A DNA stretch of 30,750 nucleotides from a virus, in the IMG/VR virus record IMGVR_UViG_3300005045_000020, positions 1-30,750 of that record, one strand, 5' to 3'. Numbering within the stretch: position 1 is the stretch's first letter; every line of letters begins with the position of its first letter. The notes below the pieces were generated by a model that was not told where the DNA came from, did no database searches, and saw only the letters and a program-made list of their open reading frames with translations. Position numbers and translations under genes: made by a program. Positions 8,558 to 26,231 of this stretch are shown piece by piece.

Positions 8558-9646
8558 GTGCTAGGTTTACGCCCCTTATCAGCAAGCCCTATACGCGCCA
8601 TTGTACGGCAGCTGTCGGTATCGCTTGAGGCCGGCGCGTATGTAGTTTCTGGGACGTCTAGTACGGCAGTAAAAGCTAGAATAGTTTCTACTAATGCGGG
8701 TGTATATGCAGTAACGGGTGTCCAGAACTCGTTAGTGCGAACTAGAATTCTAACTACAGTGGTTGGGTCGTATACCGCCACAGGTGCCGCAAACACACTT
8801 ACGCTGGCAAGAAGGCTCCCAACGGTAGTTGGGGGGTACGCCATATCAGGCGCCCAAAACTCATTCACGCGCACACTAGCGCTCGCTACAGCTACGCGGG
8901 CATATACCATATCAGGTGCAGGTAGTACAGCTGTGCTAGGTATAGTGCGCACCACTGCCACCGGCGCATATGCAGTTACAGGCGCTCAGAGTTCATTCAT
9001 ACGCTCGCTAGTTCTACCGGCAGCAGTGGGTAGCTACGCAACTGCAGGTGCAACGGCGGGGCTGCGGGTTGAGCATATACTCCGCACGGCTCCACAGGCA
9101 TACTCTATAGCAGGAGTTTCTGTCGGCGTAACAGTCGGAAGAGTAAGTTCAACTACCGTCGGCACGTATAGTGTAGTAGGTATCCCTTTAGTATTTTTAC
9201 GTGGAACTGCATTACAAGCATCCGCTGGCATATACGACATTCAAGGCGTACAAGCAACAATGGTGCGCGACTGCCCATTGCCATTAGAAGCGGGCATATA
9301 TTCTTTTGCTGGATATCCTGTAGGTGTAGCACTCGCAATTTACCCCGCAGGAGTAGAAGCCACAGCGACAGCTGGTGTAGTGGGCGCTGCTGGTAGGTTT
9401 GATATAGATGGCGTACTAGCACTGTTCTCGCTGGGCGGAACGCACGTACATGTGCCTTGGTATTCTGCGCAGGACCAGCAGGTCGGTCCGTGGGGTGCAG
9501 TTACAGACGCGCAAAGCAATGTATGGAGCGCAGCACAGGATTCTCAGGCAAATGCGTGGGTAGACGTGAATGATTCGCAAGCCGGCGGCTGGACCGCTGC
9601 CCCTGAAACCCAATCTGGTTCTTGGAACCAAATAAATACACAATAG
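8558..9646 (+). CDS. Virion protein with eleven 22-residue beta repeats
   Basis: GTG 8558 follows the previous stop by three bases, with AAGAGGAA upstream. From residue 25 the protein repeats every 22 residues with the pattern [AV]GxYxVxGxxxxxxRxxxLxxx. Ten copies in register (25-244) are followed by an eleventh and a weaker twelfth, so a beta-solenoid or stacked-hairpin fibre is likely. The C-terminal 60 residues hold a different Trp-rich series (DQQVGPWGAV, AQSNVWSAAQ, SQANAWVDVN, SQAGGWTAAP, TQSGSWNQIN), with a period near 10. Position between two fibre genes suggests an elongated adhesion or tail-fibre-linked protein. Similar repeat proteins are common in phage tail regions but have no assigned function. 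Confidence 0.8.
   Translation: MLGLRPLSASPIRAIVRQLSVSLEAGAYVVSGTSSTAVKARIVSTNAGVYAVTGVQNSLVRTRILTTVVGSYTATGAANTLTLARRLPTVVGGYAISGAQNSFTRTLALATATRAYTISGAGSTAVLGIVRTTATGAYAVTGAQSSFIRSLVLPAAVGSYATAGATAGLRVEHILRTAPQAYSIAGVSVGVTVGRVSSTTVGTYSVVGIPLVFLRGTALQASAGIYDIQGVQATMVRDCPLPLEAGIYSFAGYPVGVALAIYPAGVEATATAGVVGAAGRFDIDGVLALFSLGGTHVHVPWYSAQDQQVGPWGAVTDAQSNVWSAAQDSQANAWVDVNDSQAGGWTAAPETQSGSWNQINTQ
8630..9355 (+). repeat. 66-bp in-frame repeat array (11 copies, diverged)
   Basis: The DNA from 8630 encodes successive 22-codon units that begin AGxY. Units one to ten cover 8630-9289 without any length change, and an eleventh unit reaches about 9355. Nucleotide identity between copies is modest, so the array is old and kept in register by selection on the protein rather than by recent duplication. 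Confidence 0.75.
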
Positions 9647-9655
9647 AGGACAATT

Positions 9656-10987
9656 ATGGCTTCAGTAATATCTCCACTTCTACGCCTTGAGCTGATGGCT
9701 ACTGGCGAGAAAAGCTCCACATGGGGCCTTACCACCAACTCTAACCTGAAGAACGTGCTGGAATCGGCCATCGCCGGCATATCTACATTCGCAGTGCCTC
9801 ACACACTGACAGTGGCAAACAATGCACCAGATGAAGCCCGCAGTGCGATTCTAGTCGCGACCGGAGCCATCGGTAGTGCTCAGAAAATTACAATCCCTGC
9901 AGTCAGTAAAGTGTACGTGGTGCGCAATGCGACGACGGGCGGGTTTGCAGTTACGATCGGTACTGCTGCGGGCGACTTAGCCATAGTCCCATACCAAAGC
10001 ACAATGACAGTGTACTGCGACGGAGCTAATACCTATCCAACCATTGACATGGGGCTAGTAGAAGCTGCAGCTGCTTCGCTCGCCCTTAAAGCCCCTCTAG
10101 CCAGCCCGACGTTTACCGGCACGGCTACGTTCTCTGGCACTGTAGCGGGCATCACAAAGACCACAGTAGGACTAGCTAACGTAGATAACACAACGGATGC
10201 ACTGAAGCCTGTCTCCACTGCGCAGGGGGCAGCCATTGGGCTGAAAGCCAATCTAGCATCGCCGACATTTACCGGCACTCCGAAATCGACCACGCCTGCG
10301 CAGTTCGACGGCACTACAAACATTGCTACCATGGAAGCGGTCCAAGAGGCGCTTGGCAGCCTTAGACCAGATGTTGCTTCATACTCCGCAACTAAGACAC
10401 TGACCGCTGCGGATGTAGGCAAGTCTATTACACTCGGGGGTACCGCAGCATGGACCCTGACTCTACCGTCGGGCGTAAACGCGCCTAGCGGAAGTGCCGT
10501 ACACCTGTACAAAACAGGCGGTGCTGGTACTGTGACAGTACGGTGTGGCGGGACAGATACCATAATTACATCTAGCGGCGCAACCCCAACCAGTATCGCG
10601 CTGGAAAACGGGGCAGACGTTATGTTAGTGAAACATGGCGGGCTGTGGATCATACGGGGTGGGTCTGTCAGGCTTAGATATGCTCCAGATTTCGATAGCA
10701 CTTTCGCTTCTGCAGCTGGCAGTATGTCATTCCCCAACGGATTCACTATGCAGTGGGGCGTGCATAGGTTCACACATGCAAGTGCTGGTACGCTGAATGC
10801 ACTCATAACACTAGAGCACCCGCAGTCTATGTTTTTTTACTGTGACGCAAACGTAGAAACATCTACACCCAATGCATACCACGCATCCGCAATTATGCAC
10901 TCTGCGACTCAGCTAAGAGTGTATTCCTATAACGCTGGGTATGGCGACGTAGATGTGAAGTATTGCGCGTTCGGGATTAAATCTTAA
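9656..10987 (+). CDS. Tail fibre with gp53-like C-terminal domain, 443 aa
   Basis: ATG 9656 lies behind GAGGA. The N-terminal region (residues 1-130) contains GEKSSTWGLTTNSNLKNVLE, a pattern seen in many phage fibre proteins. Two copies of LKAxLASPTFTGT (from about residues 143 and 196) and VGLANVDNTTDALKPVSTAQ belong to the shaft repeats of tail fibres. A carbohydrate-binding-like beta region follows (240-340). The C-terminal 95 residues (FPNGFTMQWGVHRF ... VKYCAFGIKS) match the general layout of the gp53-like receptor-binding tip. It is a second host-recognition protein besides the S74 fibre, and no chaperone domain is visible. Closest function: adsorption to surface polysaccharide or protein, inferred. 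Confidence 0.85.
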   Translation: MASVISPLLRLELMATGEKSSTWGLTTNSNLKNVLESAIAGISTFAVPHTLTVANNAPDEARSAILVATGAIGSAQKITIPAVSKVYVVRNATTGGFAVTIGTAAGDLAIVPYQSTMTVYCDGANTYPTIDMGLVEAAAASLALKAPLASPTFTGTATFSGTVAGITKTTVGLANVDNTTDALKPVSTAQGAAIGLKANLASPTFTGTPKSTTPAQFDGTTNIATMEAVQEALGSLRPDVASYSATKTLTAADVGKSITLGGTAAWTLTLPSGVNAPSGSAVHLYKTGGAGTVTVRCGGTDTIITSSGATPTSIALENGADVMLVKHGGLWIIRGGSVRLRYAPDFDSTFASAAGSMSFPNGFTMQWGVHRFTHASAGTLNALITLEHPQSMFFYCDANVETSTPNAYHASAIMHSATQLRVYSYNAGYGDVDVKYCAFGIKS

Positions 10988-11041
10988 ATTACTGCTAAGA
11001 ATAATGGTGTGGCAGCACACAAATACCTAAAGAGAATTATT

Positions 11042-11389
11042 ATGTCAGCACAAGTAGAATATCAAGTAATACTTAATTGGCTAGGTGGGGCCATCTGTGT
11101 TCTTGGTGGATGGTTCCTGAATAACTTAGATCGCAGGTTTCGTGATAATGAAGTCGTGCAAAAGGGGCACGGAGACAAGATTCAGGCTATCGAGTTGCTT
11201 GTCGCCGGCGACTACGTGAAACGTGAAGATCATGAGAAATACATGGCCGCTATTTTCAAGAAGCTAGACGCCATCGAGGATAAAGTTGATACCGTCCAAG
11301 TGGGGGTAGTAGCAGAGTTAAACGAAGTTAAACTTAAATGCGCAGTCGTACACGGAGGACCTAATGATAACTCCCGCCCAGCTCGTTGA
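11042..11389 (+). CDS. Membrane-anchored coiled-coil protein of lysis cassette, 115 aa
   Basis: I prefer ATG 11042 (AAGAGA upstream); a GTG at 11009 would add 11 residues but has no clear SD. Residues 9-27 (VILNWLGGAICVLGGWFLN) form one membrane segment. The rest is charged and helical, with GDYVKREDHEKYMAAIFKKLDAIEDKVD, a pattern common to short phage proteins encoded beside endolysins (YVRK-D-Y...I...LD.I..K.D). Such proteins are often guessed to be holin-like or holin partners, but this is not established. It overlaps the endolysin gene start by 26 bases, so the two are coupled. Confidence 0.75.
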   Translation: MSAQVEYQVILNWLGGAICVLGGWFLNNLDRRFRDNEVVQKGHGDKIQAIELLVAGDYVKREDHEKYMAAIFKKLDAIEDKVDTVQVGVVAELNEVKLKCAVVHGGPNDNSRPAR

Positions 11390-11900
11390 AATTTATGGAT
11401 GCTCTTATGAGCGTGCGAATCGGTACGCCGGCCCGCTGTCAGCTGCCATGGATAGGTTTGGAATCACATCTATAGCGAGTGTGTGCGCCTTCATCGCGCA
11501 GGTGGGGCATGAATCAGGGCGATTGCGGTACAACAAGGAGCTGGCTAGTGGTGCCGCGTATGACACCGGAAGGCTTGCAGAGCGTCTGGGAAACACACCA
11601 GAAGCTGACGGCGACGGCCAGCGCTACAAAGGGCGAGGTCCTATACAGATAACGGGTACAGATAATTATATTGCTTGTGGAGCCGCACTTGGGCTAGACT
11701 TGATTGCGAATCCTGAACTGCTGGAAACCGCTGAGTATGGCTGCGCTGCTGCTGCGTGGTTCTTCTCTGACCGTGGGTGCATCGAGGCCGCTGACGCCGG
11801 CGACTTTAGGAAAGTAACGAAGATCATCAACGGCGGGTACAACGGTATGGAGGACAGGGAAGAGCTGTTCGCCAACGCACAGGAAGTATTAGGAGGATGA
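11364..11900 (+). CDS. Endolysin, GH19 chitinase-like (lysozyme-type) domain
   Basis: ATG 11364 has GGAGG (11355-11359), inside the end of the previous gene. The 178-residue single-domain enzyme shows FIAQVGHESG with the probable catalytic acid E50, a second glutamate E59 in YNKEL, then GDGQRYKGRGPIQITGTDNY (residues 83-102) and KIINGGYNG near the C-terminus. These are signature positions of GH19-type phage endolysins, which cut the glycan chains of peptidoglycan. No signal peptide or SAR anchor is seen, so it should need a holin to cross the inner membrane. The gene just downstream is holin-like, completing the cassette. Confidence 0.9.
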   Translation: MITPAQLVEIYGCSYERANRYAGPLSAAMDRFGITSIASVCAFIAQVGHESGRLRYNKELASGAAYDTGRLAERLGNTPEADGDGQRYKGRGPIQITGTDNYIACGAALGLDLIANPELLETAEYGCAAAAWFFSDRGCIEAADAGDFRKVTKIINGGYNGMEDREELFANAQEVLGG

Positions 11901-11901
11901 T

Positions 11902-12123
11902 ATGACTAAGGCTGAGTTGAAAGAATATGTCATTGCGCGTCTGACTGAGGCTAGCACATGGCAAGGCATCGGATTCCTTGTGGCGCTGACAGGATGCAAG
12001 GCAGGGCTAGGACTAGACTGGGGGCAGGCTGCTGGGCTGGGTGGCATCTTATCTGCGGTGCTGAAAATGATGTTCCCTGATGCACGACCAGAATCGGAGA
12101 AACCCAATGTTGAATCTACTTAA
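11902..12123 (+). CDS. Holin-like small membrane protein, 73 aa
   Basis: ATG 11902 is preceded by AGGAGG, whose sequence overlaps the end of the endolysin gene. An N-terminal charged helix (KAELKEYVIARLTEASTW) leads into two moderately hydrophobic stretches (about residues 19-37 and 40-58), ending with a charged tail (FPDARPESEKPNVEST). The LTEASTWQGIGFL pattern is frequent in phage proteins annotated as holins. The place between endolysin and spanins supports the call. The protein overlaps the Rz-like gene by 17 bases. It could alternatively be a non-holin membrane protein, with the gene at 11042 being the holin. Confidence 0.75.
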   Translation: MTKAELKEYVIARLTEASTWQGIGFLVALTGCKAGLGLDWGQAAGLGGILSAVLKMMFPDARPESEKPNVEST

Positions 12124-12625
12124 CCCCGGAACATGGCTCGTCGCTATACTGGCGCTCGCAGTATCTTTCGGTGCCGGCTGGATGGAGAAGGGCAAGCGTG
12201 TAGAGGCGGAAAAGGCCGTTGCGGCGAGTATAGCGAAGGACGAGGCGTTATCGAAGGAGCGGCAGGCGCGCGACGCGGTGCAGGCTACGGCAGCTGGGTA
12301 TCAACTTAAACTCGCAGAAAACCAGAAGAGGTCAGATGATGAAATGTCTAAACTTAGAAAAAAACTTGCAGCTATGCCTGTGTGCGCTGTGTCTGGTGAT
12401 ACTGTCGGGATGCTCTACCCCATGGGTGCAGTCAGCCTGCCCGGAAGTACCCCCGCTGGACTCCGCACTAGCAGCTTCCCCGCGTATGCTGATTCTACCT
12501 GTGCAGCTCAACTCGAGCTTGCCGCCCGCAACTACAGAGAAGTCTGCATCCCAAACGCCGAGCAATTGATAGGCGTGCAGAAAGCGTACTCCGACGTACA
12601 GCAGCTGTTTAAAACTAAGAAGTAG
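12107..12625 (+). CDS. Rz: i-spanin (Rz-like), 172 aa
   Basis: ATG 12107 has GGAG at 12096-12099 and lies inside the end of the holin-like gene; an ATG nine codons upstream lacks an SD. Residues 9-25 (TWLVAILALAVSFGAGW) form a single N-terminal inner-membrane anchor. Next comes a long charged coiled coil in the periplasm (about 26-90: EKGKRVEAEKAVAASIAKDEALSKE...), then a cysteine-containing C-terminal part. This is the i-spanin architecture. i-spanins pair with an outer-membrane lipoprotein to fuse the two membranes in the last step of lysis. The partner gene is embedded in another frame at 12336. Length is close to that of lambda Rz (153). Confidence 0.85.
   Translation: MLNLLNPGTWLVAILALAVSFGAGWMEKGKRVEAEKAVAASIAKDEALSKERQARDAVQATAAGYQLKLAENQKRSDDEMSKLRKKLAAMPVCAVSGDTVGMLYPMGAVSLPGSTPAGLRTSSFPAYADSTCAAQLELAARNYREVCIPNAEQLIGVQKAYSDVQQLFKTKK
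12336..12569 (+). CDS. Rz1: o-spanin (Rz1-like) lipoprotein nested in Rz
   Basis: This 77-codon gene lies wholly inside the i-spanin gene in another + frame. Two ATG codons in a row (12336 and 12339) follow AGAGG (about 12327-12331). The N-terminal signal (residues 3-25, LCLCALCLVILSG) ends in a lipobox LSGC with C26 as the lipidated cysteine, and the next residues STP do not give an inner-membrane retention Asp. The short mature part is proline-rich (CPEVPPL, SSLPPATTE), as expected for Rz1. It would sit in the outer membrane and bind the i-spanin C-terminus. Fully embedded Rz1 genes are known in lambda-like phages. Confidence 0.87.
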   Translation: MMKCLNLEKNLQLCLCALCLVILSGCSTPWVQSACPEVPPLDSALAASPRMLILPVQLNSSLPPATTEKSASQTPSN

Positions 12626-20243: not shown

Positions 20244-23200
20244 ATGTCATACAGAGTTACGTTACCGAACGGAGATTTTGTCGATGTAGATGACTCTGTA
20301 TCGCATGAAGAGTCACGCGCGCAGATCATGCAGGCGTTCCCCGAGCAGTTCCCCAAGGCTGGTGGGTTCGTCAACAACGCTAAAGCTGGTGCGGCGGCTG
20401 GGCTCGGTTCGCTTCTTCGCGCTGGGTCTGAAGCGCTGGATGGGTTCGAAGGTGACTCTGGTGCCGCTGACTGGCTGAAAAAGAAAAGCAAGGACGCGCA
20501 CAACTACGCCAACTCAACTTTTGTCGCGACGCCAGAAAGCGCTGAAGGCTTCGGCAATATGTTCAACCGCAATATCGCGGAGCCTATCGGCGGTATGGTC
20601 GGTGCGTTCGCCCCTACAATGCTCGCCGCTGCGGGTGCTACTGCACTTGCCGGCCCTGTCGCGGGCGCTGCCACCTTCATGCTCCCTCGCATCGGTACAA
20701 ACTACGGCCAGAACGTCGAGTACAACGAAGCCAAAGGCATCGAGAATGATGTAGGCGGGAACCTCGCATCTGCAGTCGGCATGTCTATTCTTGAGCGTTT
20801 CGGTGTCGGACGTATTGTGAATGGTCCTATGGGCGCCGTCGGCCTGCGCACTGCGCAGCGCGTAGCTTCTACCGAGCTGGCTCCGCTTGTACAAGCAGGT
20901 AAATTATCTGTAGAAGAAGCCACAGCGCAATTGCCTAGCCTGCTGAAAAACGCTGGTGTGCACATCGTAGAAAACGCTGGGTCTAATGCCGTCATGATGG
21001 GCGGTATCTCCGCACTCCAGCGCGCGCAGGCCGGTGAGTCACTGACTGATGGCGAAGCCATGACGCGCTACGGTCACGACCTGAAGATGGCAGCTACGCT
21101 GGCACCGGTGTTTGGTCCACTGCATGCGGGGCGCAGGGGTGCTAAGGGTGAGCTGGAGAAAGGTGCAGAGGGCTTCCGTAAGAATTTTGCAGGCCCAGAC
21201 GAGGGATACAAAGAGCCGTATAGGCAGAAGATGGCCGACGAGTCGGCACAGCGCGAAGCCGAGTATGCACCGTATCTTGATGAAGTTGAAGCCGCTCGCG
21301 CTGCTAGCGAAGGCTCCGTCGCAATGCCTCCAACACGGGCTGAGCGCATGGCAGCATTTAATGCCGAGCAACTGGCCCTATCAGAAAAAGCTGCCAGAGG
21401 TGTAGTAGGCGACCATACGCCGTTCGAAGCAAACAGTCAGTGGACTAGGGCTGAAGATGCCAAGGCTGCGTTTTCAGAAGCTACGCCAGACCTGATCGGA
21501 CAGTACCGCCCCGGGGAGAAAACACTACCTGCACCGACGGAGAACCTTGAGCCGATTATCGACCCACAGAATCCTAAGACGGGGAAAGTGGTTGGATATA
21601 AGCCAGCGGAAACACCGCGCCCAGACTTCGCACTTGAGCCATCGAACAAGCAGGTGCAGGGTGAAATGTTCTCGACGGTGCCAGAGCAGGGGCTAGTATC
21701 TAGGACTGCTGGTAATGGGCTGCTCGATTTCGCAAAGATAACGAAAGCAGATGATTTCAAAGGTGTAGTAGCGCCGCAAACGCGCGCAAAACTAGCTGGG
21801 CTCAACGAGTCGAAGTCTGCTGATGTGCAGAAAATCATCGACACACTGCGCGCATACAAAAATATAATTAAGCGAAAAGATGGCAACACTGAAGAGTGGA
21901 TGTTAAGAAATCAAACCGTAGACGAAAGAATAAATTTCTACGAGCAGAGGCTCAACGATATAACCAGAAACGAGACACAGCTGGAAATGCTGTCTACCGC
22001 CGTGCGCGGTGAAGGCCGTGAGCTGTTCGATGCGACTGATGGTAGCGGCACTACGAAGGCAGACCCATATCCACGTGCAGCAAGTGAAGGTGCACCGCGC
22101 GGAACAGGCAGAGAATTATTTACAGCAGCCCCTGAAGCATTGGCGAAGACACTTACACCGGAGGGTAAAAATGAGCAAAGACCTGAAGCTAACGTCCAAG
22201 CAGCTGGAGTCGGTGTGGGAGAGCGAGATATTCGACCAACCGCTGCCCCGGAACGTACGACACCTAACACCCTCACAGATATCGCAAGCACTGGACCTGC
22301 TGGAGACAATCTACGAGCAACAGAAAAACGCAATAATGCACTGACACCCAACACCATCGCGGGGTTAGCAGAAGCTACCGTAGATGCAAATGGACCGCGC
22401 CGTGCAGAAGGTAAGGCTGCTCCGGTAGAGCCTTTTATAGCTGCAAGTGAAGCAGATCGACTATTAAAGCAGGCGGGCATCAAAAACGAGAAGGCACTTG
22501 AGGATGGTATGGCGGCCTCGGCGGTTACTCGCGACGGCGAGGAAGTGTTCAGTAGGGCAAAGCTGGAAGCCCATATAGAAGCGCAGAAGCCTACAACAAA
22601 TGCGTTTACTACTCGCACGTTAGGCGAAGATTTTATTGCCGCCGCCAAGGAAAGAGCGCGGGAGAATGAAAAAGATGATCCCCGCCAGTATGCAGAAGCC
22701 AAGCCAGCTGAAGGCCAGCTGCACCCTGAAGTCGCGGTAGCCGTTGGTAGCAAGAAAGGCTTGAACCATACACTCGATGCGATTATCGCGACAGAGCAAG
22801 ACCCGTTTCTACGCGAAGTGGCGAAGGCGTTGCGCGCGCTCGGGCTGGAGACGAAGCTTAGTGCAGAGCATCTTGGCGAGAACAAGCCGGGAAGTTTCCA
22901 CGAAGGCGCCGACCGTATCGCGATCAACCCAGCATATGCCGACACCCGTACGATTCTGCATGAAGGTGTGCACGCTGCTACGGCGTGGGCGATCAGTAAC
23001 CCTGCCAAACTTAACAACCATCAGCGCGCAGCGATACAGAACCTGAAGCAGATTTTTGCACAGTTGAAGCAGGAGAACCCTGAGCTGGCCAAGAAATATG
23101 GCTTCAAGAACCTGCATGAATTTGTGGCTGAAGCGTTTACGAACAAAGAGTTTCAGGATGCACTGAAGCAGGAGCGTGGTATCAAGGCTGAGCGCGGTGC

Positions 23201-26200
23201 GTTTACCAAAATGTGGGACTCGTTCGTGCAGACCATCAGCAAATTGCTGGGTGTGAAAGAAGGCACCGCGCTGCATGAAGTGCTGGATGCCGGTACGCAG
23301 CTGTTCGATCGCCGTCGCGGCGAGCATGAAGTGCAGGTGCACTACGCGGAAGCACGACCAGCTACAGTTGGTGAAGTAGAGCGTGTAGGCGCGACGCCAG
23401 AGCGCGCAAGGGGAGTTATCGGCGTAACAGCGGACTTTGTAAAAGGTATCGCACACGACGCGGCTAGCGCATTTGATGGGGTGCCACAGGCGCAGATGCG
23501 GTCTGCCCTTGGTAAGTGGCTGAGCGATAAAATCTACAACATAGAGCAACGGCTAGGTGACAGACAGGTAGGGCGCACGCGATATATGCCTACCTCTGGC
23601 TACGTTACTGATGCCGCCGGCACTAAGTGGAATGCTGCTGCTTGGGAAATCAAGGATGGTAAGGCAGCACCAAGCGCACGCTCGCTTGTGCAGGCCCAAG
23701 AATATGGCGTAGGTGTTGCAGAAGCCGCGCTGGCATACGGCAAGGTTGCGTTGAGTAAGGAAGGGATTTTCACGGCCCAGAACGACGCCAACAACCTGCA
23801 TGCACTCAATGACGCTGCGTGGACAGTCAAGATCGAAGGCGTAACGAACCCGCTGCGGCTGGTCAATTCTATCCTCACACAGTTTTCCCAGATGGAGCAT
23901 GAGCAGAACCGCTCTAAAATACGCGACGCTGCCCAGAGATTCATAGATGAAGGCAAAGCAGATATCGAGCGCTCTAAGTTGCTGGAAGGCGAAGCCTTGT
24001 TTGCCGTACGCACGCAGGGTAAGCGCTCTGTAGCAAAGGGTGAGCAGATGCTTGAGGACTCACCTGAGTACACCCGCCCAGCTGGCATGACGGACGCCAC
24101 GCTGGAAAAAGCAAAAGAAATGGTTGCAAGCTCACCAGAACTGCAGAAAGTTCTGGAGATAAATCGCGGTATGAACATGAACACCATCCAGCTGTTGCAA
24201 GAAGGTGGGGTTATCTCCAAAGAAACTGCGGACCTGTGGCGTGAAAACCAGTATTACAGCCCGATGTTCCGCGTGCGTGAGGACAAGGCACTGAACGAAG
24301 CGTTCATGCGCTCCACTGGCAATACCGCCATGAAGAAATTCAAGGGTTCGGAGCGTGAGGTAGATGTTATGTCTAACCATGTGACCCAGCTGGTGTGGGC
24401 TGCAGATGCCGCTGTGCGTAACCAAGCCCAGAAAGCATCAGTTGACTTCTTCATGCGCGACCCGAAAATGGCAGAAGAAATAGGCATGCAGCGGGTGCAC
24501 TCAGCACAGGGAGATAAAACCATCAGCGTACGAGTCAACGGCGAGCAGCAGTTCTATCATGTCGAGGATATCAACGCCTACAAGTCATTCGCTGATGTGC
24601 GCGCGGTGCTGCCGGGGTTCATGAAGCCTTTTGAAATAGCAACACACATGTTCCGTGAAGCGATCATGTTATCGCCCGGGGCCCAGATACGTAATATTAC
24701 CCGTGACCCGATGGAAGCGTGGGCTGCTGGGCACACCACTAGAGGGCTCGTAGGTTCATATGGAGAGTCTGCCAAAATCTTGGCTAAAATATTCCCGGAT
24801 ATGAAGACCACGAACATATCGGCGCTGGGTAAAATATCCGAGGCTGGCGTATTTAAGCATGGCATTACCGGTGTACGCGAGTTGACCAAACAGAGCCGTG
24901 AATTGGACGAAGTATTGCGCCGCGTAAGGCAAGAAGAGGGTATCGCCAGTGGCGTAGATATTCCACTAGATAAAATGGATGGGCTGCTGGGCCGACTGCA
25001 CCACAAAATGCAGGATATTACTCGCGCAGTCGAGGTAGCTCCACGCGAAGCGGTGTACCAGAACACACTGAAGCGCACAGGTAGTGAGCATGAAGCGCGT
25101 ATGGCGGCGATCAACACCATCGATTTCCGGCGCCAAGGCGACTTTACAGGCATCACATACGCCCGTGCACTGATACCGTTCTTCAACTCACAGATTCAAG
25201 GTCTGTATAAAATCCACCGTACGCTGGCGCGCGGCGACTCGATGGGTATGTCCGTAGCAGATGCCCGCGTTGCCATGGCAACCAAGATGCTGATGATGGC
25301 CGGCGCCGCAACGATGTACCACACAGTCATGTCTGCTACAGACGACGAGTACAAAAATACCCCTATGGACGTGAAGGCAAATAACTTCGTCATACCGACC
25401 CCACTAGGGCAGGTAAAAGCTGCGCTGCCGTTTGAATTTGGCGCACTGGCCTACTCTCTCCCACTGCAAATATTAGAAACCGCTAGCGGGCGCCAGAATA
25501 TGGGCGAGTTCGCTGAGGGGCTGAAGTCACTGACGATGAAGCAGATGCCGAGCATGAGTGTGGCATTCGCGAAACCGATGGTAGAAGCAAGAACAAACTA
25601 TGACTTCTTCACAGGGCGCAATATCGAGAGTAAGGCGCAGCAGGGCGTAGCGCCGGAGCAGCGTGTGAACAAGGACACTTCTAAGGTTGCGCAGGGTGTG
25701 GGTAAAGCGATGGGCTGGTCGCCAGTGCAGATCGATCACGCATTTAATGGCTACTTCGGCTCAATTGGCAAGCACGTCGTTGGAATCGTGGACTCTATAA
25801 TCGGTGCTGGCGATGGCAGTGCTGATACCCCATGGCGCCGTACACAAGCAGGCAAAGTTTTCTTCACCGACCCAGAGCGCACCAAGCAAACCGACCAGCT
25901 GTACAACCTGCACAAGCAGCTCGACGAGTCATTGAATACGCTCAACCTATTCAAGAAAGATTTACGGGGTAAGGAGTATCAGGATTACGGTTCACGCGAG
26001 TCAAGCGTTCCGGGGATCACGAATTTCCAAGCGTCGGCGTACGCCAAGCCGGTTGCAGAAGCGATTAAAAATATCTCTAAGATCAGGCAGAATGAATCCA
26101 TCGTGAGGCATGGTAGTTTATCTGGTGCGGAGAAGCAAGCGGAGCTGGCAAGACTGGCGGCGCAACGAAACAACATCGCTATGCAGCTAGCCGAGCCGTT

Positions 26201-26231
26201 ACGAGCCCACCTTAATCTGGAATCCCAATAA
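20244..26231 (+). CDS. Giant polyvalent ejection protein with zinc-peptidase and LPD38-like domains, 1995 aa
   Basis: ATG 20244 follows AAGGGGC. A short N-terminal domain (residues 1-37, YRVTLPNGDFVDVDDSVS...FPEQFP) precedes a hydrophobic region (about 112-150) that could cross or destabilise a membrane. Residues about 590-760 are a low-complexity linker. HEGVH (906-910) with LHEFVAEAF and E963 53 residues after the motif forms a gluzincin-type zinc-peptidase site. From about 1465 onward, SPGAQIRNITRDPMEAW, NTIDFRRQGDF and ARALIPFFNSQIQGLYKI match the LPD38-type domain of large polyvalent proteins. Such proteins are packaged and delivered into the host on infection, where the peptidase could act on host targets. 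The delivery and target are inference. A second gene is overprinted at 22171. Confidence 0.83.
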   Translation: MSYRVTLPNGDFVDVDDSVSHEESRAQIMQAFPEQFPKAGGFVNNAKAGAAAGLGSLLRAGSEALDGFEGDSGAADWLKKKSKDAHNYANSTFVATPESAEGFGNMFNRNIAEPIGGMVGAFAPTMLAAAGATALAGPVAGAATFMLPRIGTNYGQNVEYNEAKGIENDVGGNLASAVGMSILERFGVGRIVNGPMGAVGLRTAQRVASTELAPLVQAGKLSVEEATAQLPSLLKNAGVHIVENAGSNAVMMGGISALQRAQAGESLTDGEAMTRYGHDLKMAATLAPVFGPLHAGRRGAKGELEKGAEGFRKNFAGPDEGYKEPYRQKMADESAQREAEYAPYLDEVEAARAASEGSVAMPPTRAERMAAFNAEQLALSEKAARGVVGDHTPFEANSQWTRAEDAKAAFSEATPDLIGQYRPGEKTLPAPTENLEPIIDPQNPKTGKVVGYKPAETPRPDFALEPSNKQVQGEMFSTVPEQGLVSRTAGNGLLDFAKITKADDFKGVVAPQTRAKLAGLNESKSADVQKIIDTLRAYKNIIKRKDGNTEEWMLRNQTVDERINFYEQRLNDITRNETQLEMLSTAVRGEGRELFDATDGSGTTKADPYPRAASEGAPRGTGRELFTAAPEALAKTLTPEGKNEQRPEANVQAAGVGVGERDIRPTAAPERTTPNTLTDIASTGPAGDNLRATEKRNNALTPNTIAGLAEATVDANGPRRAEGKAAPVEPFIAASEADRLLKQAGIKNEKALEDGMAASAVTRDGEEVFSRAKLEAHIEAQKPTTNAFTTRTLGEDFIAAAKERARENEKDDPRQYAEAKPAEGQLHPEVAVAVGSKKGLNHTLDAIIATEQDPFLREVAKALRALGLETKLSAEHLGENKPGSFHEGADRIAINPAYADTRTILHEGVHAATAWAISNPAKLNNHQRAAIQNLKQIFAQLKQENPELAKKYGFKNLHEFVAEAFTNKEFQDALKQERGIKAERGAFTKMWDSFVQTISKLLGVKEGTALHEVLDAGTQLFDRRRGEHEVQVHYAEARPATVGEVERVGATPERARGVIGVTADFVKGIAHDAASAFDGVPQAQMRSALGKWLSDKIYNIEQRLGDRQVGRTRYMPTSGYVTDAAGTKWNAAAWEIKDGKAAPSARSLVQAQEYGVGVAEAALAYGKVALSKEGIFTAQNDANNLHALNDAAWTVKIEGVTNPLRLVNSILTQFSQMEHEQNRSKIRDAAQRFIDEGKADIERSKLLEGEALFAVRTQGKRSVAKGEQMLEDSPEYTRPAGMTDATLEKAKEMVASSPELQKVLEINRGMNMNTIQLLQEGGVISKETADLWRENQYYSPMFRVREDKALNEAFMRSTGNTAMKKFKGSEREVDVMSNHVTQLVWAADAAVRNQAQKASVDFFMRDPKMAEEIGMQRVHSAQGDKTISVRVNGEQQFYHVEDINAYKSFADVRAVLPGFMKPFEIATHMFREAIMLSPGAQIRNITRDPMEAWAAGHTTRGLVGSYGESAKILAKIFPDMKTTNISALGKISEAGVFKHGITGVRELTKQSRELDEVLRRVRQEEGIASGVDIPLDKMDGLLGRLHHKMQDITRAVEVAPREAVYQNTLKRTGSEHEARMAAINTIDFRRQGDFTGITYARALIPFFNSQIQGLYKIHRTLARGDSMGMSVADARVAMATKMLMMAGAATMYHTVMSATDDEYKNTPMDVKANNFVIPTPLGQVKAALPFEFGALAYSLPLQILETASGRQNMGEFAEGLKSLTMKQMPSMSVAFAKPMVEARTNYDFFTGRNIESKAQQGVAPEQRVNKDTSKVAQGVGKAMGWSPVQIDHAFNGYFGSIGKHVVGIVDSIIGAGDGSADTPWRRTQAGKVFFTDPERTKQTDQLYNLHKQLDESLNTLNLFKKDLRGKEYQDYGSRESSVPGITNFQASAYAKPVAEAIKNISKIRQNESIVRHGSLSGAEKQAELARLAAQRNNIAMQLAEPLRAHLNLESQ
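22171..22344 (+). CDS. Overprinted small gene inside the giant protein, 57 aa
   Basis: In the +1 frame relative to the giant gene, ATG 22171 is preceded by GGAGGG (22160-22165) with a five-base gap, one of the best SD sites in the window. The frame encodes MSKDLKLTSKQLESVWESEI, FDQPLPRNVRHLTPSQISQA and LDLLETIYEQQKNAIMH, then TGA. It looks like a real small protein: two amphipathic helices around a PLP-RNVRHLTP turn, balanced charge and no low-complexity. The host frame here (residues about 643-700) is a Pro/Thr/Ala/Asn-rich linker, which is the place where overprinting costs least. The function is unknown; a small helical binding or inhibitory protein made without any virion part is one idea. 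Confidence 0.68.
   Translation: MSKDLKLTSKQLESVWESEIFDQPLPRNVRHLTPSQISQALDLLETIYEQQKNAIMH

Follow-up and report, generated by a model that had tools for sequence, protein, structure and literature searches.

What is encoded when a short open reading frame lies wholly inside one of the largest genes of a phage? The question is raised by the 30,750-base record of an uncultivated phage analysed here at its full length (the window), in which the earlier note had picked out a 57-codon frame with GGAGGG five bases ahead of its ATG, nested in the frame of a 1995-residue protein. Coordinates, start and Shine–Dalgarno sequence were all reproduced in our analysis. The small ORF, MSKDLKLTSKQLESVWESEIFDQPLPRNVRHLTPSQISQALDLLETIYEQQKNAIMH, runs for 57 codons from an ATG at 22171–22173 to a TGA at 22342–22344 and lies wholly inside the host ORF 20244–26231, in its +1 frame; it is a complete reading frame in another frame of a second gene, with a start and ribosome-binding site of its own. 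The features of the locus are:

20244–26231, plus strand: host gene for a 1995-residue phage-type polyvalent protein with LPD38 and zincin-like HExxH, the final gene of the late block
22160–22165, plus strand: Shine–Dalgarno sequence GGAGGG, with a 5-nt spacer (TAAAA) to the ATG
22170–22344, plus strand: overlapped host-frame linker, about residues 643–700, rich in Pro/Thr/Ala/Gly
22171–22344, plus strand: putative overprinted small gene, 57 codons plus TGA, in frame +1 relative to the giant gene
22890–23270, plus strand: zincin-like metallopeptidase domain of the host protein, with HEGVH at 22959–22973, located 3′ of the small gene
25341–25823, plus strand: LPD38 domain of the host protein (Pfam LPD38, E 2.9e-28)

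The host product is a very large multidomain protein that combines a zincin-like HExxH motif with an LPD domain and so belongs among the polyvalent proteins; it resembles those described in PMC5512222 in its zincin-like metallopeptidase, LPD38 and very large size. Among the genes ahead of it are those for an ejection protein and for a virion protein of transglycosylase-like type, and the label "ejection protein" for the giant would follow from its polyvalent-protein domains together with its place after ejection-protein genes. Across the small ORF the host frame reads GKNEQRPEANVQAAGVGVGERDIRPTAAPERTTPNTLTDIASTGPAGDNLRATEKRNNALT, a Pro/Thr/Ala/Asn linker in which the residues P, G, A, T, S and N make up 63% of positions versus 40% elsewhere in the host, and leucine falls to 2% from 8%, bearing out the proposal that a Pro/Thr/Asn-rich host linker gives way to the second frame. 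At a separate locus, L043, an ORF of more than 1,000 codons (9271–12292, plus strand) carries long Thr/Pro repeats of the TTTAAPTTT type.

Such strong residue bias in the overlapped host would fit an alternative, that the small ORF is not a gene: its +1 frame would be open because of Pro/Gly/Thr linker composition, and similar frames in other phages would look alike since such linkers yield Leu/Gln/Glu-rich +1 translations. When the linker was recoded synonymously, 6.7% of recodings kept the +1 frame open for at least 57 codons, and an open +1 frame by itself is weak evidence for a gene. What places the small ORF far above chance is the occurrence of homologous +1 ORFs with Shine–Dalgarno sequence and start in related giants, together with frozen host third positions in the overlap of relatives.

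The first homologue came from a tblastn search with the 57-residue product on the whole records of 50 relatives, as a weak match (E 0.007) to the virus G018. This match is in register with a 57-codon, ATG-started ORF that G018 carries within its giant gene, again in frame +1. A profile of the window and G018 copies yielded three further members; IMG/VR, searched with the metallopeptidase domain from these giants, returned 70 loci, 58 of them with an embedded member, and a scan with the window-type metallopeptidase returned 80 loci, about 50 with a member. A context-blind search of IMG/VR, for which the small family was the sole query, matched 330 stretches; each of the best 80 of these 330 is found inside a giant ORF in frame +1. 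All fetched loci together gave about 200 hits, 198 of which sit within a polyvalent-protein giant and are read in its +1 frame. The two others fit this picture: L220 lies in +1 within a 235-residue host fragment, left where apparent frameshifts break up the gene, and L429, at the edge of a contig, was also placed in +1. None of the roughly 200 hits in fetched loci is free-standing.

Removal of duplicates left 144 distinct copies with an identifiable start, all from IMG/VR phages and about 57 residues long, which begin with ATG (127), GTG (15) or TTG (2). Length, C-terminal ending, residue pattern and start with Shine–Dalgarno sequence are conserved across the family. About 92% of the family's starts have a Shine–Dalgarno core of at least 4 nt ahead of them, and for background ATG/GTG codons in the +1 frame the figure is 5.8%. 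This contrast is somewhat inflated by the partial use of Shine–Dalgarno strength in choosing starts, but earlier start sets agree with it. The host genes span about 1,800–3,600 codons in tailed phages, and all 50 member records examined for copy number hold one copy per genome. The earlier note had looked to homologues with the same Shine–Dalgarno sequence and start, either inside the giant gene or free of it, for support, and would have been contradicted by their lack or by +1 stop codons in relatives; the homologues found are all inside giants in +1, and in relatives this frame is open with start and Shine–Dalgarno sequence kept.

We next asked how the window copy relates to this family. A family HMM built without the window gave it about 13 bits, its top local alignment being out of register, and an E of 0.68 when all ORFs were searched; hhalign with a profile that left out the window found only a 16-column, out-of-register match. 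The near-invariant tryptophan of helix 2, present in 37 of 37 aligned members, is replaced in the window copy by QI. Similarity beyond composition is found by tblastn, by phmmer and by global score. With the window copy alone as phmmer query against 64,298 unique ORFs, family members took 9 of the top 10 places, versus 0–3 for 12 shuffled versions; its global profile score exceeded those of all 600 shuffles and of all other 57-residue stop-free stretches tested in the host's other frames, the next four of which overlap the same ORF. Most loci whose metallopeptidase is closest to that of the window carry the small gene. Because shuffle-controlled similarity and these closest-metallopeptidase loci agree with shared frame, length, Shine–Dalgarno sequence and position, we hold with high confidence that the window ORF is an orthologue of the family, of which it appears to be a divergent member. 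A second weak tblastn match, in G019, lies about 20 kb from that virus's giant gene and was taken as chance.

To examine selection on the hidden frame, we compared 34 disjoint close pairs of relatives that differ by 4–29% in the overlap. Differences at host codon positions 1/2/3 number 426/219/101 in the overlap, 1720/1444/2532 in the near flanks (110 codons on each side) and 10988/8335/21107 elsewhere, so that host third positions account for 14% of differences in the overlap, 44% just outside and 52% elsewhere (chi-square, overlap versus near flank, P 3e-66 with sites treated as independent). Host-synonymous codon differences amount to 1.9% in the overlap, 17% near it and 22% elsewhere, and in 34 of 34 pairs conservation is higher for the small protein than for the host frame. 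Counted in the small frame, differences fall 219/95/420 at positions 1/2/3. In these relatives, purifying selection in the second frame coincides with suppressed synonymous change in the host, the mark of a +1 frame that codes for protein across a relaxed linker in the host. A comparison of synonymous rates had been proposed in the earlier note, and normal third-position freedom in the giant frame would have spoken against the gene; in relatives this freedom is abolished in the overlap (14% versus 44–52% of differences), the window's own clade holding only an identical copy, a 65,357-base IMG/VR record that matches it at every one of 18,507 bases compared. In pairs such as L356/L357 and L302/L318, the small gene forms an island of about 93% DNA identity between flanks in which about half of the codons differ, as if recombination or very uneven constraint had acted around it.

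Together with the conserved start, Shine–Dalgarno sequence, length, C-terminal ending and residue pattern, these frozen third positions run counter to an origin of the open frame in composition, as do the loss of the family match on shuffling the window protein and the family search of +1 frames from giants that lack the small gene, which returned noise only. Judged by these sequence comparisons the composition reading is already refuted for the family, and we regard it as very improbable overall. Still less probable is a frameshifted extension of the giant protein with no start of its own: the +1 frame is open for some way 5′ of the ATG in many members, the window included, but the start with its Shine–Dalgarno sequence is conserved, an in-frame stop lies within 10 codons 5′ of it in 53 of 144 members, and in 9 members the stop directly precedes the start, which excludes frameshift read-in for those 9. 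A reading in which RNA structure or a regulatory element, and not a protein, accounts for the conservation is similarly remote, since differences track the +1 codon phase (219/95/420) and start, stop and frame are conserved. The small ORF is thus very probably a genuine gene that overprints the giant polyvalent-protein gene and is translated on its own.

Among 50 records that have related giants or capsids and in which no embedded copy of this putative gene had been found before, 48 hold no copy anywhere; the exceptions, G035 and G048, each carry one embedded in the giant gene. The small gene is not needed by every metallopeptidase-bearing giant, because many giants with the same metallopeptidase lack it. 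By capsid protein the nearest cultured relatives are Planktothrix phage Pag-Yong1 (68%), DSL-LC04 and Pelagibacter phages HTVC023P and HTVC027P, and profile searches of 13 records of cultured or isolate relatives, these four among them, detected no member. In INPHARED phages tblastn with four query proteins gave no match, and in GTDB genomes and contigs nine pattern hits included no relatives. Sequence searches of PHROGs, Pfam and PDB gave no family match, and a fold search with the predicted model found no structural relative at E ≤ 0.001. Single members had weak hits to phrog_3109 and phrog_5825, neither of which was matched in the records of relatives, and weak Pfam hits of single members were rejected. 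No description of such a gene was found in the accessible part of the literature. Neither PHROGs and Pfam nor the cultured phages searched contain a member of this new family. With no free-standing homologue found and many same-domain giants without the small gene, its most likely origin is de novo in a permissive linker.

We infer that the small ORF is translated, with ribosomes starting at its own Shine–Dalgarno sequence and ATG within the late mRNA. The product would be a soluble, acidic helix–Pro-linker–helix protein of about 57 residues. AlphaFold places predicted helices at residues 9–21 and 34–56 of the window protein (mean pLDDT 73) and two helices in a typical family member (pLDDT 83), and inspection predicted neither a lipobox nor a membrane segment.

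A role of the small protein in another step, such as assembly of other ejection proteins, host take-over or anti-defence, has close to an even chance; the gene would then sit in the giant because it was born there and is immobile. Embedding alone is no proof of partnership with the host protein, the preceding genes encode, among others, an ejection protein and a virion protein resembling transglycosylases, and the family has no fold or family match. Against this, 95 of 98 near-complete host genes encode the zincin-like domain, although many of their loci had been retrieved through that very domain, and in 94 of these 95 the small gene is located 5′ of it. At the remaining locus described here, L321, the small gene lies at host residue 954, downstream of the metallopeptidase domain (residues 753–912) and still within the giant; the order of linker and domains seems to have been rearranged there, with the small gene retained inside. 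These observations point tentatively to a partner function: the small protein would be supplied in cis to the polyvalent protein with its metallopeptidase, as a chaperone, scaffold or inhibitor, from the giant's own message and in excess over it. Such a partnership we can only infer, since a gene that arose within another is not readily moved out of it. PMC5512222 proposes processing of polyvalent proteins by such peptidases. A narrower version, in which the small protein is a dedicated inhibitor or chaperone of the giant encoded in the linker of the giant's gene, is rather unlikely; if true, a weapon and its safety catch would come from one message and be inherited as one piece of DNA. The giants of two loci, L270 and L281, each gave two alignments to the metallopeptidase region of the window, which suggests two copies of that region.

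Same-strand +1 overprinting has a precedent in phiX174 (reviewed in PMC8227390), where gene E in D is likewise a whole gene inside another, shifted one nucleotide 3′; the small gene's pattern agrees with the position classes cp13/cp21/cp32 given in that review. Unlike E in D, the host here is a tailed-phage polyvalent-protein gene and the product a small two-helix protein with no recognisable relative. For the polyvalent class, a word search of PMC5512222 returned no "overlapping" and one unrelated "reading frame", and we saw no description of an embedded gene for it. Gene finders rarely predict one gene fully nested in another, which is why this small gene, under selection across many lineages of phages, had been overlooked; the case suggests that more hidden genes may lie in giant phage genes of metagenomes. 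The 144 distinct copies form a deep natural series for the co-evolution of two frames.

The spanins offer a second precedent: the small Rz1 gene sits within the late gene Rz, is read in frame +1 and has a start codon of its own. Its product is a lysis-cassette lipoprotein, whereas the new small protein has no lipobox and is encoded in a virion gene; an Rz/Rz1-type identity was rejected, the window protein (P0001) containing no cysteine and its host being no spanin. The window has lysis genes elsewhere. A GH19-type endolysin is encoded at 11364–11900 on the plus strand (Pfam Glyco_hydro_19, E 1e-10; phrog_181, E 3e-66). An Rz-like spanin gene follows at 12080–12625, plus strand (phrog_1327, E 2.7e-6), and inside it a 77-codon +1 ORF (12336–12569, plus strand) has a lipobox-like N-terminus (LVILSGCSTP). 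These two ORFs are likely an embedded Rz/Rz1 pair, and the window would therefore hold two +1 embedded genes.
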